Positions 19,138 to 48,380 of a stretch of 64,000 nucleotides of DNA are shown here, piece after piece; the stretch's first letter is position 1, and the number at the start of each line of letters is the position of its first letter. The stretch comes from Micavibrio sp. (lineage in GTDB: Bacteria > Pseudomonadota > Alphaproteobacteria > Micavibrionales > Micavibrionaceae), in the NCBI GenBank assembly GCA_026989265.1, contig JALSJP010000001.1, positions 124,001 through 188,000 on the forward strand, in the 5' to 3' direction. The notes below the pieces were generated by a model. The model had not been told where the DNA came from, searched no databases, and saw nothing but the letters and a program-made list of their open reading frames with translations. The position numbers and the translations under genes are program-made.

Positions 19138-19857
19138 TTACAATAATAATATTTCACCAGAGGTCACTTTCTTCTCTTCACCGCTTTTATCGCATATTAA
19201 AATGAGATTTCCAAGCATGTCGATAGTTTGGAATGCGCCTGTTATCTTGTTGTCGCCTATTTTAACACTAATTTTGCGACCCTTTTCATATGTATTGTTA
19301 AGCCATTCATCACGAAGATTTGTGAAACCTTCATTTTGCCAGCTCTTATAATAATCAGAAAAAAGCGACAATAGCCTATCCATAAAATCTTGAGCTGTTA
19401 TTTCAGTGTTTGAATATTTCTGCAAAAATGTAGATATATCAAGCGGCGCGGATTTTATATTAACGCCCACGCCAATAATTAAGCAATCATTTTCATGGTT
19501 TAACAAAATCCCGCAACATTTTTTGCCGCCAATTAAAATATCATTTGGCCATTTTAAGATAACATCTTCATCAATTATCGAGGTGATCGCTCTATATATA
19601 GCTAGCGAGCTAAGCAGTGATATTTGCCCGATTTTACCTATATCGCATTTCGGGCGAATAAGGAAAGATAGGTATAAATTACCATTTGCGCCTTGCCAGC
19701 TACGACCGTGACGACCGCGACCATCACTTTGGCTTGTGGCATTTATAACTAATCCTTCTGATAAATCAGGGTTATCATTAAGTAGATTTTGCAAATAATC
19801 TTGTGTGCTTTCAAGGTTATCAAATCGCTTAATAGACCAATTAGGGGCAAAACTCAT
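19138..19857 (-). CDS. birA: BirA, biotin--[acetyl-CoA carboxylase] ligase (no DNA-binding domain)
   Basis: Attaches biotin to the carrier domain of biotin enzymes. Seen: the biotinyl-AMP loop SDGRGRHGRSWQGANGNLYL and LKWPNDILIGGKKCCGILLN, then the small C-terminal domain. At 239 aa it lacks the N-terminal helix-turn-helix of class II BirA and so cannot be the biotin-operon repressor. The first six codons lie in the left arm of a 23-bp inverted repeat whose other arm lies just behind nuoN, and no clear Shine-Dalgarno sequence precedes the ATG at 19857; see the foldback element entry. Confidence 0.95.
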   Translation of the reverse strand: MSFAPNWSIKRFDNLESTQDYLQNLLNDNPDLSEGLVINATSQSDGRGRHGRSWQGANGNLYLSFLIRPKCDIGKIGQISLLSSLAIYRAITSIIDEDVILKWPNDILIGGKKCCGILLNHENDCLIIGVGVNIKSAPLDISTFLQKYSNTEITAQDFMDRLLSLFSDYYKSWQNEGFTNLRDEWLNNTYEKGRKISVKIGDNKITGAFQTIDMLGNLILICDKSGEEKKVTSGEILLL

Positions 19858-20118
19858 TAATTATACCCATTCTGCGCTAGTCAAGTTTTTAATGAATATT
19901 TGTAAAAGTCGCGCACGGGCATAGCCATAGCTACGCTCAAGCGGCTTGAGCAAATAGGCATAAAAATTTGCAGCGCCATTACAGGTTACGAATAAACACC
20001 ACATCTGCATCATCAAGCAAGAACTTCCTATGCTACGGCATGGCAAAACCTTGCTTTCTTTGCATCTATGGTATTTATTCGTAACAGAATTGTGCATAAT
20101 TAATGAGTTTTGCCCCTA
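19842..20118. repeat. Foldback element between nuoN and birA with 23-bp perfect inverted ends
   Basis: Bases 19842-19864 and 20096-20118 are perfect inverted copies of a 23-bp sequence beginning TAGGGGCAAAACTCATTAAT (left arm). The similarity continues imperfectly for about 10 more bases inwards. The left arm covers the birA start codon and its first five codons; the right arm begins 7 bases after the nuoN stop codon. Inside are a 7-bp stem hairpin (19935-19951, GCTCAAG/CTTGAGC) and a much longer hairpin (19985-20085). A 7-bp direct repeat TAGACCA occurs at 19833 and 20117, which could be a target-site duplication, although it overlaps the right arm by 2 bases. A 78-codon open frame on the minus strand inside the element (19861-20097) has no recognisable protein features. 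Confidence 0.8.
19985..20085. repeat. Long imperfect hairpin, 17-bp outer stem
   Basis: GTTACGAATAAACACCA (19985-20001) pairs with TGGTATTTATTCGTAAC (20069-20085) at 16 of 17 positions. Inner segments (TGCAT...GCAAG and CTTGC...TGCA) pair further, giving a roughly 100-nt cruciform or RNA stem. Part of it (19996-20044) resembles a second copy at 48334-48380, including a shared 16-bp identical run. Confidence 0.75.
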
Positions 20119-20124
20119 GACCAT

Positions 20125-21561
20125 TTAAAACAACGAGGTCGCGGCCAACATAGCGCTGTCTAACAGGAAGTTTGGAACAAAGATAAATACGACTAAAAAT
20201 AACGTCACTATAAGTAAAACCGCGCGTTTAGCTAAAGCTATGTCATTATCGAATGCATCCACGGCTTCATCAAAAAACATGATTTTGATAATGCGTAAAT
20301 AATAATAAGCAGAAACAACGGAGGCTAATATTCCTAAAGTCGCAAGTAAATATAATTCGCTCTCTATTGCTGCTTCGAATATGAATAATTTACCAAAGAA
20401 ACCAGCTAATGGTGGAATACCGCTAAGTGAGAATAATATAGCAGCCATAGCATATGCCATAACTGGATTATTCTTTGAAAAGCCAGCCAAATCCGTGACA
20501 TTTTCAACCGCCAAGCCGTTTCTGCGCATTGATAAAATAATGACAAATGCCCCCGCCGTCATCGCAATATATATCAATAAAAACACAATAACCGAGCCAA
20601 CTCCAGCAGCAGTGCCAGCAACAATTCCTATCAAAGCATAGCCAATATTACCTATGGAGGAGTAGGCAAATATCCGCTTTATATTGTCTTGAGAAATAGC
20701 AGCAAACGCCCCTATAACAAGCGATCCAATGGAAATGAAATATAATATCTGCATCCATTGATCTGTTGCTGCTTCGAATGGAACAAATAAAAGCCGCATC
20801 AATAATCCTAGGGCTGCCACCTTAGGAACGATGGCAAAAAATGCTGTAACGCATGTGGGCGCGCCTTGATAAACATCAGGAGTCCACATGTGGAATGGTA
20901 CAGCCGAGATTTTAAATGCAAGAGCCGCCAGCACAAAAACCATACCAACGGTAAATCCGGGGGGGATAGAGTCAAGCGAGGATAATGTCTCTCTTATTGT
21001 ATTGAAATCAACCGAGCCAACAAAGCCATATATAAGTGATATGCCAAATAAAAGCATCCCCGAGGAAAGCGCTCCAAGAATGAAATATTTAGCCGCCGCC
21101 TCGCCTGATCTTAAAGAATTACGGTGAAATGCAGCCAATACATATAGGCTAAGTGATTGTAATTCCAGCGCCATATAAAGGCTAAGCATGTTATTAGATG
21201 ACACCATAAACATCATGCCAACGCCTGCAAAAATAACCAGCACTGGGTATTCAAACCTAGCGATTCGCTCTTGATGTAGATATTGCACAGATAGAGCCAA
21301 TGACACGGTTAAGCCCAGTAATATCAATAGCTTCATTATGCCAGCAAAGCTATCAATGACAAGCATATCACTTAATATATATGTTACGCTCCAATCTGAT
21401 TTCATCAATAAAACCGCAGCGATAACAAAGCCAATACAGCTAGCCCAGCATAAAGTATTCGTAGAGCTATTACCCTTAAATACGCCAATCATAAGAAATG
21501 CCATTCCTATAGCTATAAGGAATAATTCAGGCAAAATAGGCATGAGATTTAAATCATCCAT
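20125..21561 (-). CDS. nuoN: NuoN, NADH-quinone oxidoreductase subunit N
   Basis: Proton-pumping antiporter-like membrane subunit of respiratory complex I (ND2 homologue). About 14 hydrophobic segments are visible, with the key lysine/glutamate segments MALELQSLSLYVLAAFHRNS, FKISAVPFHMWTPDVYQGAP and FAYSSIGNIGYALIGI. The ATG at 21561 (MDDLNLMPILPE) is preferred to the upstream in-frame ATG at 21579, since AGGGG precedes it and the longer form would overlap nuoM by 17 bases. It is the last nuo gene; birA follows after the 267-base foldback region. Confidence 0.97.
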   Translation of the reverse strand: MDDLNLMPILPELFLIAIGMAFLMIGVFKGNSSTNTLCWASCIGFVIAAVLLMKSDWSVTYILSDMLVIDSFAGIMKLLILLGLTVSLALSVQYLHQERIARFEYPVLVIFAGVGMMFMVSSNNMLSLYMALELQSLSLYVLAAFHRNSLRSGEAAAKYFILGALSSGMLLFGISLIYGFVGSVDFNTIRETLSSLDSIPPGFTVGMVFVLAALAFKISAVPFHMWTPDVYQGAPTCVTAFFAIVPKVAALGLLMRLLFVPFEAATDQWMQILYFISIGSLVIGAFAAISQDNIKRIFAYSSIGNIGYALIGIVAGTAAGVGSVIVFLLIYIAMTAGAFVIILSMRRNGLAVENVTDLAGFSKNNPVMAYAMAAILFSLSGIPPLAGFFGKLFIFEAAIESELYLLATLGILASVVSAYYYLRIIKIMFFDEAVDAFDNDIALAKRAVLLIVTLFLVVFIFVPNFLLDSAMLAATSLF

Positions 21562-21562
21562 T

Positions 21563-23050
21563 TTACTTAATCCCCTCATATATTGATGTGATTTCAGCGA
21601 CCGCTGGTGAGAATGTATCCATCACAACATTTGGAAATATCCCTAGATAAATAACTAAAAAAGCCAAAGGAATAAACAGCCCCTTTTCAAGCATATTTAA
21701 GTCCCTCATCTCTGCCGCATCTTTATTATCAGAAGGGCCAAAGAAAATGCGCCTATATAGCACCAACATATAAGCCGCGCCCAATATAACGCCCGTAGTG
21801 GCAAGCGCCGCAATTACGGTATTAACCTGAAACGCGCCAAGCAATGTCAAAAACTCGCCAACAAACCCGCTAGTACCCGGTAAACCAACCGAGCCAAGCA
21901 TGAATATCATAAACATAGTGGCAAATATGGGCATATTTCTTACTATGCCGCCATAACGGCTTATCTCCCTAGTATGCAGGCGATCATAAACCACGCCAAC
22001 ACATAAGAACATCGCGGCAGAAATTATGCCGTGGCTAAGCATTTGGAAAATTGCGCCTTCAATTCCTTGCGTGGTGAATGAGAAAATGCCAAGTGTAACA
22101 AAACCCATATGAGCAACAGATGAGTAAGCAATCAGTTTTTTCATGTCCTCTTGCACAAGTGCAATTAGTGACGCATAGATAATAGCACCAACGCTAAGCC
22201 ACATAACAAGCGGCGCAAAATACATGCTTGCATCAGGCAGCATAGGCAGGGAAAATCTAAGGAATCCATAGCCCCCCATTTTCAGCAAGACCCCAGCCAA
22301 TATAACTGATCCAGCCGTTGGAGCTTCCACATGAGCGGTGCGCAGCCAAGTATGAACTGGCCACATAGGCATTTTAATCGCAAAGCTAGCAAAAAATGCA
22401 AGCCACACCCATTTTTGCATATCCGCCGCAATAGGGTTAGCCATCAGCACCGTAATATCCGTTGTTCCTACCTCAACATATAGAAATAGCAAGGCAAGCA
22501 GCATCAAAACCGAGCCAGTAAGAGTATATAAAAAGAACTTATAAGATGCATAAACGCGGCGCGAACCGCCCCAAATACCAATAATAAGGAACATAGGTAT
22601 AAGTACGCCCTCAAAAAACACATAAAACATTATAGAATCAAGGGCTACGAATGTTCCAATCATGAAGCTTTCAAGCACAAGAAACATAATCATATATTCT
22701 TTAATGCGGGTCTTAATGCTATTCCAGCTAGCTAAAATGCAAATTGGCGTTAAAAATACCGAAAGCAGTACAAAGAAAATAGATATGCCATCAACTCCGA
22801 GGTGATAGCTTATGGGTAATACACCAAACCATTGATATTTTTCAACGAATTGAAAGCCAGATATGCTTGGATCAAAATTTTGGTATAAAAATACACCAAA
22901 AGCAAATACAAATAATGAGCAAAATAGAGCGAGATTCTTAACATTTTTCTCAATAACAGCCTCATCGCCTTTTTCACCGCGCACAAGAGCAATCATCACC
23001 GCGCAAATAAGCGGCAAGAAAATCATGATAGAGAGTAATGGTATATTCAT
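21563..23050 (-). CDS. nuoM: NuoM, NADH-quinone oxidoreductase subunit M
   Basis: Antiporter-like membrane subunit of complex I (ND4 homologue), 495 aa with about 14 membrane helices. Seen: SYHLGVDGISIFFVLLSVFL near the start, VLESFMIGTFVALDSIMFYV with the conserved pumping-channel acidic residue, WLRTAHVEAPTAGSVILAGV, and AYSSVAHMGFVTLGIFSF. It overlaps nuoL by 4 bases and leaves 1 base before the nuoN start. Confidence 0.97.
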   Translation of the reverse strand: MNIPLLSIMIFLPLICAVMIALVRGEKGDEAVIEKNVKNLALFCSLFVFAFGVFLYQNFDPSISGFQFVEKYQWFGVLPISYHLGVDGISIFFVLLSVFLTPICILASWNSIKTRIKEYMIMFLVLESFMIGTFVALDSIMFYVFFEGVLIPMFLIIGIWGGSRRVYASYKFFLYTLTGSVLMLLALLFLYVEVGTTDITVLMANPIAADMQKWVWLAFFASFAIKMPMWPVHTWLRTAHVEAPTAGSVILAGVLLKMGGYGFLRFSLPMLPDASMYFAPLVMWLSVGAIIYASLIALVQEDMKKLIAYSSVAHMGFVTLGIFSFTTQGIEGAIFQMLSHGIISAAMFLCVGVVYDRLHTREISRYGGIVRNMPIFATMFMIFMLGSVGLPGTSGFVGEFLTLLGAFQVNTVIAALATTGVILGAAYMLVLYRRIFFGPSDNKDAAEMRDLNMLEKGLFIPLAFLVIYLGIFPNVVMDTFSPAVAEITSIYEGIK

Positions 23051-48255: not shown

Positions 48256-48333
48256 ATAGCTAAGATGCCCTATTTATATTAAGATTAAGTGAAGTTATGT
48301 AGAAAGCCATGCTCAACTCTATACGCAATTAGA

Positions 48334-48380
48334 TACCACATATGCGCCATCAAGCAAGAACTTACTGTCTATAGCATGGG
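48334..48380. repeat. Second copy of the nuoN-birA hairpin core
   Basis: This segment in the 259-base gap before etfB resembles 19996-20044: both contain CCACAT, then the identical 16-mer CATCAAGCAAGAACTT (20011-20026 and 48348-48363), then a TAT...GCATGG block. Flanking bases can form an imperfect hairpin (GCGCCA/TGGCGC). The gap holds no other gene I can support. Confidence 0.55.

Follow-up and report, generated by a model that had tools for sequence, protein, structure and literature searches.

A dispersed foldback element with IS5/IS427-like ends at the start of birA in a Micavibrio genome, and its apparent donation of the birA start codon

Introduction

The question raised by this locus is how birA, a conserved gene, came to begin inside one arm of a long inverted repeat. 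We analyzed a 64,000-nt stretch of DNA from Micavibrio sp. (GenBank assembly GCA_026989265.1, contig JALSJP010000001.1, positions 124,001 to 188,000; hereafter the window), in which a foldback lies between nuoN and birA. Micavibrio is placed in Bdellovibrionota by the NCBI taxonomy and is a deep alphaproteobacterial branch according to PMC3733652 (in part). An earlier interpretation of this stretch (the sequence-only reading) had proposed that a MITE-like insertion supplied a new start codon to birA, that pairing of the arms would hide that codon, and, as another possibility, that the structure is an RNA switch controlling biotin ligase. Below, genomes are designated by G numbers (G000 being that of the window), contigs by C numbers and loci by L numbers.

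Results

A foldback between nuoN and birA

The element is 277 bp long and has 28-nt arms (Table 1). The arms found by the repeat finder agree at 93%, and over the outer 23 nt (19842-19864 and 20096-20118) each is the perfect reverse complement of the other. The fold of the minus-strand RNA from 20150 to 19800 was -135.4 kcal/mol, compared to -87.5 ± 5.3 kcal/mol for 100 shuffled sequences (z -9.1), and 0 of the 100 folded as well. The exact arms and this fold bear out the foldback described in the sequence-only reading. The repeat finder also recovered the 101-nt imperfect inner hairpin of that reading, with 25-nt arms (84%) at 19985-20009 and 20061-20085.

There were no matches to any of 4227 Rfam families at E values up to 1 over positions 19500-20500. 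A site scan of 19700-20300 found no terminator-like sites (1.0 expected) and four promoter-like sites (1.8 expected), all of which lie outside the element; we therefore rejected a promoter or terminator carried by it. A TATAAT hexamer at 19860-19865 on the minus strand, in the 3' arm and just ahead of the birA ATG, is missing from the list of the promoter scan.

Table 1. Features of the nuoN-birA region (positions in the window)
Feature	Position	Strand	Remarks
birA, biotin--[acetyl-CoA-carboxylase] ligase	19138..19857	-	start inside element; TIGR00121 (E 3.1e-50), PF03099
Whole element	19842..20118	-	TA-flanked foldback of MITE type; full-length homologous copies in other genomes
3' terminal arm	19842..19869	-	holds birA ATG and codons for MSFAP; repeat finder, sequence
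78-codon ORF in element	19861..20097	-	birA frame; starts in 5' arm, stops 3 nt before birA ATG; possible reinitiation leader
Hairpin B (P3)	19874..19976	-	fold, core pattern, alignment
Conserved core of hairpin B, CATAGCCRTAGCTACGNTCAAGC	19920-19942		read on + strand
Hairpin A (P2), ~100 nt	19985..20085	-	compensated in other copies
5' terminal arm (in nuoN-birA transcript)	20091..20118	-	repeat finder
ATG GTC TA directly 3' of nuoN stop	20117..20124	-	where G010 begins birA; the TA doubles as the arm's first TA
nuoN	20125..21579	-	NF004440 (E 2.8e-182)

The birA start codon lies in the 3' arm

The ATG of birA (19857-19855) falls within the 3' arm, ATAATTAATGAGTTTTGCCCCTA, which carries it in the birA frame. 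As read now, the protein begins MSFAP-NWSIK, with MSFAP contributed by the arm. This ATG is the only in-frame ATG, GTG or TTG ahead of the conserved BirA N-terminus: 5' of it the frame has a stop and then TTA, and the next candidate start is a TTG at codon 22. BirA matches were found in 36 of 38 genomes and at one place in the genome of the window. A BirA protein scan of the contig collection gave 15 stretches that fit a pattern, none of which was confirmed.

We compared the birA locus in 29 of 35 relatives, 28 of which held nuoN there. The distance from the nuoN stop to the birA anchor was at most 45 nt in 27 of these 28; the exception, L066, has 562 nt of other sequence between them. The element was present at birA in none of the 28. 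In the nearest relative, G010, ATGGCTATAAATTGG comes immediately after the nuoN stop. The window has TAA ATGGTCTA, the element, and TAATTGG. Removing the element and one TA leaves ATGGTCTAATTGG, two bases fewer than the 15-nt stretch that is in frame in G010, so the ancestral start and frame are not restored; with both TA assigned to the target, the site would be in frame. A later two-base loss or another history could account for the shortfall.

Related elements are dispersed among Micavibrio-like genomes

A DNA search with the element gave matches in 8 of 38 genomes, that of the window included, with several each in G008, G010 and G011; the last two carry the kinship label of the same genus as the window's genome. 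Of 142 genomes from the order, 12 contain the 23-base core at up to two mismatches, with 11 matches in G111 and 15 in G118, which likewise hold the element at several sites. The core match in G015 is without arms, and the core copy in G064 has only one arm. Among named genomes the exact core occurred in 16 stretches, all in records of Micavibrio sp. or Alphaproteobacteria bacterium except one Gammaproteobacteria MAG. In that MAG a full element lies at 284-561 of JAUIIB010000014.1 (L076), through either mis-binning or transfer. Viral contigs contained no stretch with the exact core pattern, and plasmids and phages gave no blastn match at E 1e-5.

An nhmmer search seeded with 24 elements, which match by construction, found the window copy as well as full and partial copies in the fetched loci. 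The window copy was matched over its whole sequence and is therefore a member of the family. The sequence-only reading had held that absence of other copies would weaken a mobile origin. In the genome of the window that concern stands, as one intact copy was found there, whereas some relatives hold many copies. Two short pieces resembling hairpin A, at 48333-48379 of the window and at G000:C16:6088-6119 (L004), suggest older, decayed copies in the same genome. A lone arm-like match with three mismatches and no partner seen, at G000:C11:16141-16160 (L036), is possibly a decayed end.

Judged by these matches, the copies are a family of ~275-bp elements dispersed through Micavibrio-like genomes. 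We did not find it described in the open-access literature searched. MITEs with IS-like ends at TA, as well as MITE fusions to gene ends, are already known.

The copies are flanked by TA

We gathered copies by arm and core searches, with the inner A..T fixed by the anchor, and analyzed two sets: 30 aligned copies and 45 copies with flanks. Neither set contains solo arms, degraded pieces, copies truncated by contig ends, or near-full copies whose arms diverge (L025, L026, L027, L091, L162). Forms of 305-337 bp (long) and 82-216 bp (short), together with L020, L021 and L145, occur only in the set of 45. TA was present on both sides of 26 of the 45 copies, on one side of 14 and on neither side of 5, so that it is missing on at least one side in 19. 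A flanking repeat longer than TA occurred in only two copies (3 and 4 bases).

Three copies (L110, L156 and L147) were selected for comparison with empty sites since the upstream ORF ends at the element; chosen for that position, they give no measure of preference. With the element and one TA removed and small gaps allowed, all three fit insertion at a TA at a stop codon, each filled site then having a stop at the place where the empty relatives do. The L110 junction is covered only by G000, two other relatives not reaching it. For L156, the empty relatives G110 and G021 cover the junction and G112 does not; the right flank there is TG, and a TA at that place assumes one later change. For L147, the junction is covered by G119, G117 and, poorly, G020. 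These comparisons led us to drop the idea that the element makes no target duplication and, together with the 45 flanks, to reject one of 7-9 bp.

The sequence-only reading had seen in the 7-bp direct repeat TAGACCA (19833-19839 and 20117-20123) a hint of insertion; as a target-site duplication, it finds no support in the two longer-than-TA repeats among 45 copies or in the three selected empty sites. The second TAGACCA also overlaps the end of the right arm and so is not a clean flanking duplication. TAGACCA at both ends would suit a foldback formed locally by duplication with this junction and not a mobile element. Full-length homologues at other places in other genomes, and TA rather than 7 bp at other copies, leave that origin hardly credible.

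Element ends also meet other genes. In 10 of the 45 copies, an open frame of at least 120 codons has a TAG stop made by the element end. An arm reads openly into argH in G022 and into folK and a nitroreductase gene in G118; in these three cases other start codons are available in the flank. At L075 there is no start within the next 120 nt, and the reading frame beyond the arm has no family match.

A common architecture with compensatory changes

The 30 aligned copies share one plan: the arms form a terminal stem, and between them are hairpin A (~100 nt) and hairpin B, whose apex is conserved. There were compensatory changes, with both sides altered and pairing kept, at 71 of the 95 consensus pairs. 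Bases paired in 95.3% of the alignment cells, compared to 73.6% for shuffles and 34-44% with partners displaced by one to three columns. For covariation, the score was 0.576, compared to 0.177 for shuffles and 0.08-0.10 for displaced partners. These counts are biased towards the structure, as the consensus was derived from the same alignment, and because the copies are related, the shuffle control cannot be read as a probability.

The share of G-U among cells, counted for 93 of the 95 pairs, was 1.1% for the arms, 4.5% for hairpin A and 4.2% for hairpin B. Coupled change of the arms with hardly any G-U would be expected if a single transposase uses the two ends as its DNA sites. Hairpins A and B do not correspond to IS ends, and their compensation therefore suggests either that the folded form is constrained or that palindromes are corrected.

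Among the shorter forms, L150 is missing hairpin A, L147 is missing hairpin B, and the 84-bp L131 retains little of either; single arms are also seen at family loci. G111 has longer variants (L074, L081, L154, L155, L157 and L160), which measure 305-337 bp and carry additional internal sequence. Lone ends of ~34-54 positions, with no partner in the stretch read, were seen in G118 (L136, L141, L129 and L140) and G011 (L124, L125 and L126); L125 runs to a contig end. Some lone ends lie upstream of genes, one of which we take to be ribosomal-protein-L25-like.

The arms resemble the ends of IS5/IS427 elements

At a contig end in G064 (L190) we found an 852-bp IS with TA-flanked ends, beginning TAGGCTCAGGACTCATTAA and, from the other end, TAGGCTCAGGACCTATTAATT. 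It has two transposase ORFs, the first passing PF13340 and the second NF033580 and PF01609. Its DDE transposase in two ORFs, length of ~850 bp and short direct repeat are those of the IS5 family; the name IS427 group is given by likeness to the elements of PMC3281130 (in part) and not by a group model. The IS427 group of Paracoccus is described there as 832-865 bp long with ends of 13-21 bp, mostly 2-bp direct repeats and, in some, two overlapping ORFs. The G064 IS agrees in size, in its two transposase ORFs and in TA at its ends. The family studied here differs in being without a transposase, and only its ends resemble the IS. In G010, a 51-nt fragment of the element is followed by the end of a related IS, inside which the contig breaks off, as if the IS had inserted into an element copy.

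We scored the arms of the 30 copies against 11 IS ends, picked for beginning TAGG; more distant transposases (such as L207-L213) have other ends. The best score was 18-20 of 21 in 17 copies, 17 in 4 and 13-16 in 9. Each real copy took the higher score of its two arms, whereas shuffled arms were scored singly; for 5000 of the latter, the mean was 10.5, the 99.9th percentile 16 and the maximum 17. The better of the window's arms scored 17 of 21, against IS ends of G118, G003 and G032, which equals the null maximum. The likeness to IS5/IS427 ends is thus strong when the family is taken as a whole and weak when the window's arms are considered by themselves.

A protein search with the second ORF of the G064 IS gave matches in 31 of 142 genomes; G118 has 20 such matches, and the genome of the window has none. 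G118 has two IS types with different ends. Its first type of arm (six arms) scored 16-18 of 21 against the first IS end and 12-13 against the second, and its second type (three arms) 14 against the first and 18-19 against the second. IS ends and transposase C-termini at contig ends of G118 (L224-L237) suggest a multi-copy IS that breaks the assembly.

IS630-like elements are TA-specific. Movement by another enzyme, IS630-like or a REP-type tyrosine transposase, with the likeness to IS5/IS427 ends due to convergence, would agree with the window arms reaching only the null maximum, with the PF13358 (IS630-type) matches, mostly broken or partial, in G000 and G010, and with the GTAG in the core; M. 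aeruginosavorus is reported to have CGTC-type REP repeats (PMC3733652, in part). However, copy-rich G011, G111 and G118 have no PF13358 match, while G118 has its 20 IS5/IS427 transposase matches and two kinds of end fitting its two kinds of arm. We consider another enzyme improbable, and rejected IS630 as the helper on finding PF13358 in just 2 of 8 genomes. Weak, stop-broken PF13358 matches below the cut-off lie at G000:C34:32102-32287 and C16:13594-13737.

The birA AUG is predicted to be buried in the arm stem

We compared the birA start with the starts of mechanically called ORFs of at least 150 aa in the window (52 were chosen and one, with too little upstream sequence, was dropped, leaving 51 with birA included). 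In 350-nt folds, the birA start region had an accessibility of 0.054 compared to a mean of 0.46, the lowest of the 51. The unpaired probability of the AUG was 0.001 in the 350-nt fold and 0.98 with only 100 nt upstream folded. As a prediction, then, the proposal that arm pairing hides the birA AUG holds. The accompanying remark that no normal ribosome-binding site precedes it is uninformative, because the anti-SD duplex energy is as weak as that of birA or weaker at 31 of the 51 starts, birA included.

Such burial, opening of the AUG in the 100-nt fold and strongly compensated helices are what a cis-acting RNA regulator of birA might display, its arm stem opening or closing the start on a signal. 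But the same element stands beside other genes in relatives, argH and folK among them, and at birA in 0 of 28; it has no Rfam match and its arms resemble transposon ends. A regulator of this kind is very improbable, and the idea of a switch dedicated to biotin ligase was not upheld.

As no second birA was found, this one is presumably expressed, which requires the arm stem to be opened in some way. Ribosomes on the 78-codon ORF would pass through the hairpins and unfold the element, and could reinitiate at the birA AUG. The ORF had no Pfam or NCBIfam match and is not conserved; no peptide is common to the 30 aligned copies. Several copies have an ORF that runs from arm to arm, but its frame through hairpin B varies and, by eye, the copies share no full-length peptide; a conserved element-encoded peptide was therefore rejected.

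Discussion

Our results are best explained by a non-autonomous MITE-type element with IS5/IS427-like ends that inserted at a TA in the first codons of birA and whose arm donates the start codon, a reading to which we assign a probability of roughly 0.85. A dispersed family with IS-like ends and TA flanks, its absence from birA in 28 relatives, and the sole in-frame start lying in an arm are features of the sequences themselves. They support the insertion of a structured MITE at the start of birA, one end of which now appears to supply the start codon, much as the sequence-only reading had proposed. Ancestral birA would have started at or near the nuoN stop, as in relatives. The element, probably mobilized in trans by an IS5/IS427 transposase, would have inserted at a TA within the first codons, and its 3' arm would have happened to carry an in-frame ATG, giving rise to the new N-terminus. 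Reinitiation after the 78-codon ORF may then maintain translation of birA.

There are partial parallels in other bacteria. Stem-loop mobile sequences of enterobacteria include a 127-bp unit, ERIC. As described in part of PMC2759123, RU-1 and RU-2 of enterobacteria have TA duplications and are fused to gene ends, including an N-terminus. By that description, stem-loop form, TA and gene-end fusion are shared with the present family, whereas size differs, and in the present case a conserved gene takes its start codon from the arm. RUP of Streptococcus pneumoniae is small and non-autonomous, with ends that match the resident IS630-Spn1 and TA-containing targets (PMC2229807, in part). The present family resembles it in these respects and differs in its hosts, in a partner that is likely of IS5/IS427 type, and in being ~275 bp with two covarying internal hairpins. 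Rickettsia palindromic elements (RPEs) are small and palindromic, encode a conserved peptide and extend host proteins, nearly half of those reported in R. conorii lying within genes (PMC10969869, a review, in part). In the window, by contrast, the arm is the only part of the element that contributes to BirA, and the inner ORF shows no conservation.

A more far-reaching scheme casts the family as a modular element that parasitizes several IS5/IS427 lineages. Its folded core, hairpins A and B, would be selected and conserved as single-stranded RNA or DNA, and its arms exchanged or re-matched to the resident IS; at birA, a translational relay would operate in which ribosomes leaving nuoN read the element ORF, unfold it and reinitiate on the donated start. 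We regard this scheme as doubtful.

These findings document an element family in a little-studied predatory lineage, and link it through two arm types to its likely helper IS. Compensation in the hairpins makes selection of such elements as folded nucleic acid testable. At birA, a conserved gene found in a single copy, the terminal repeat of a selfish element appears to have become the start codon.
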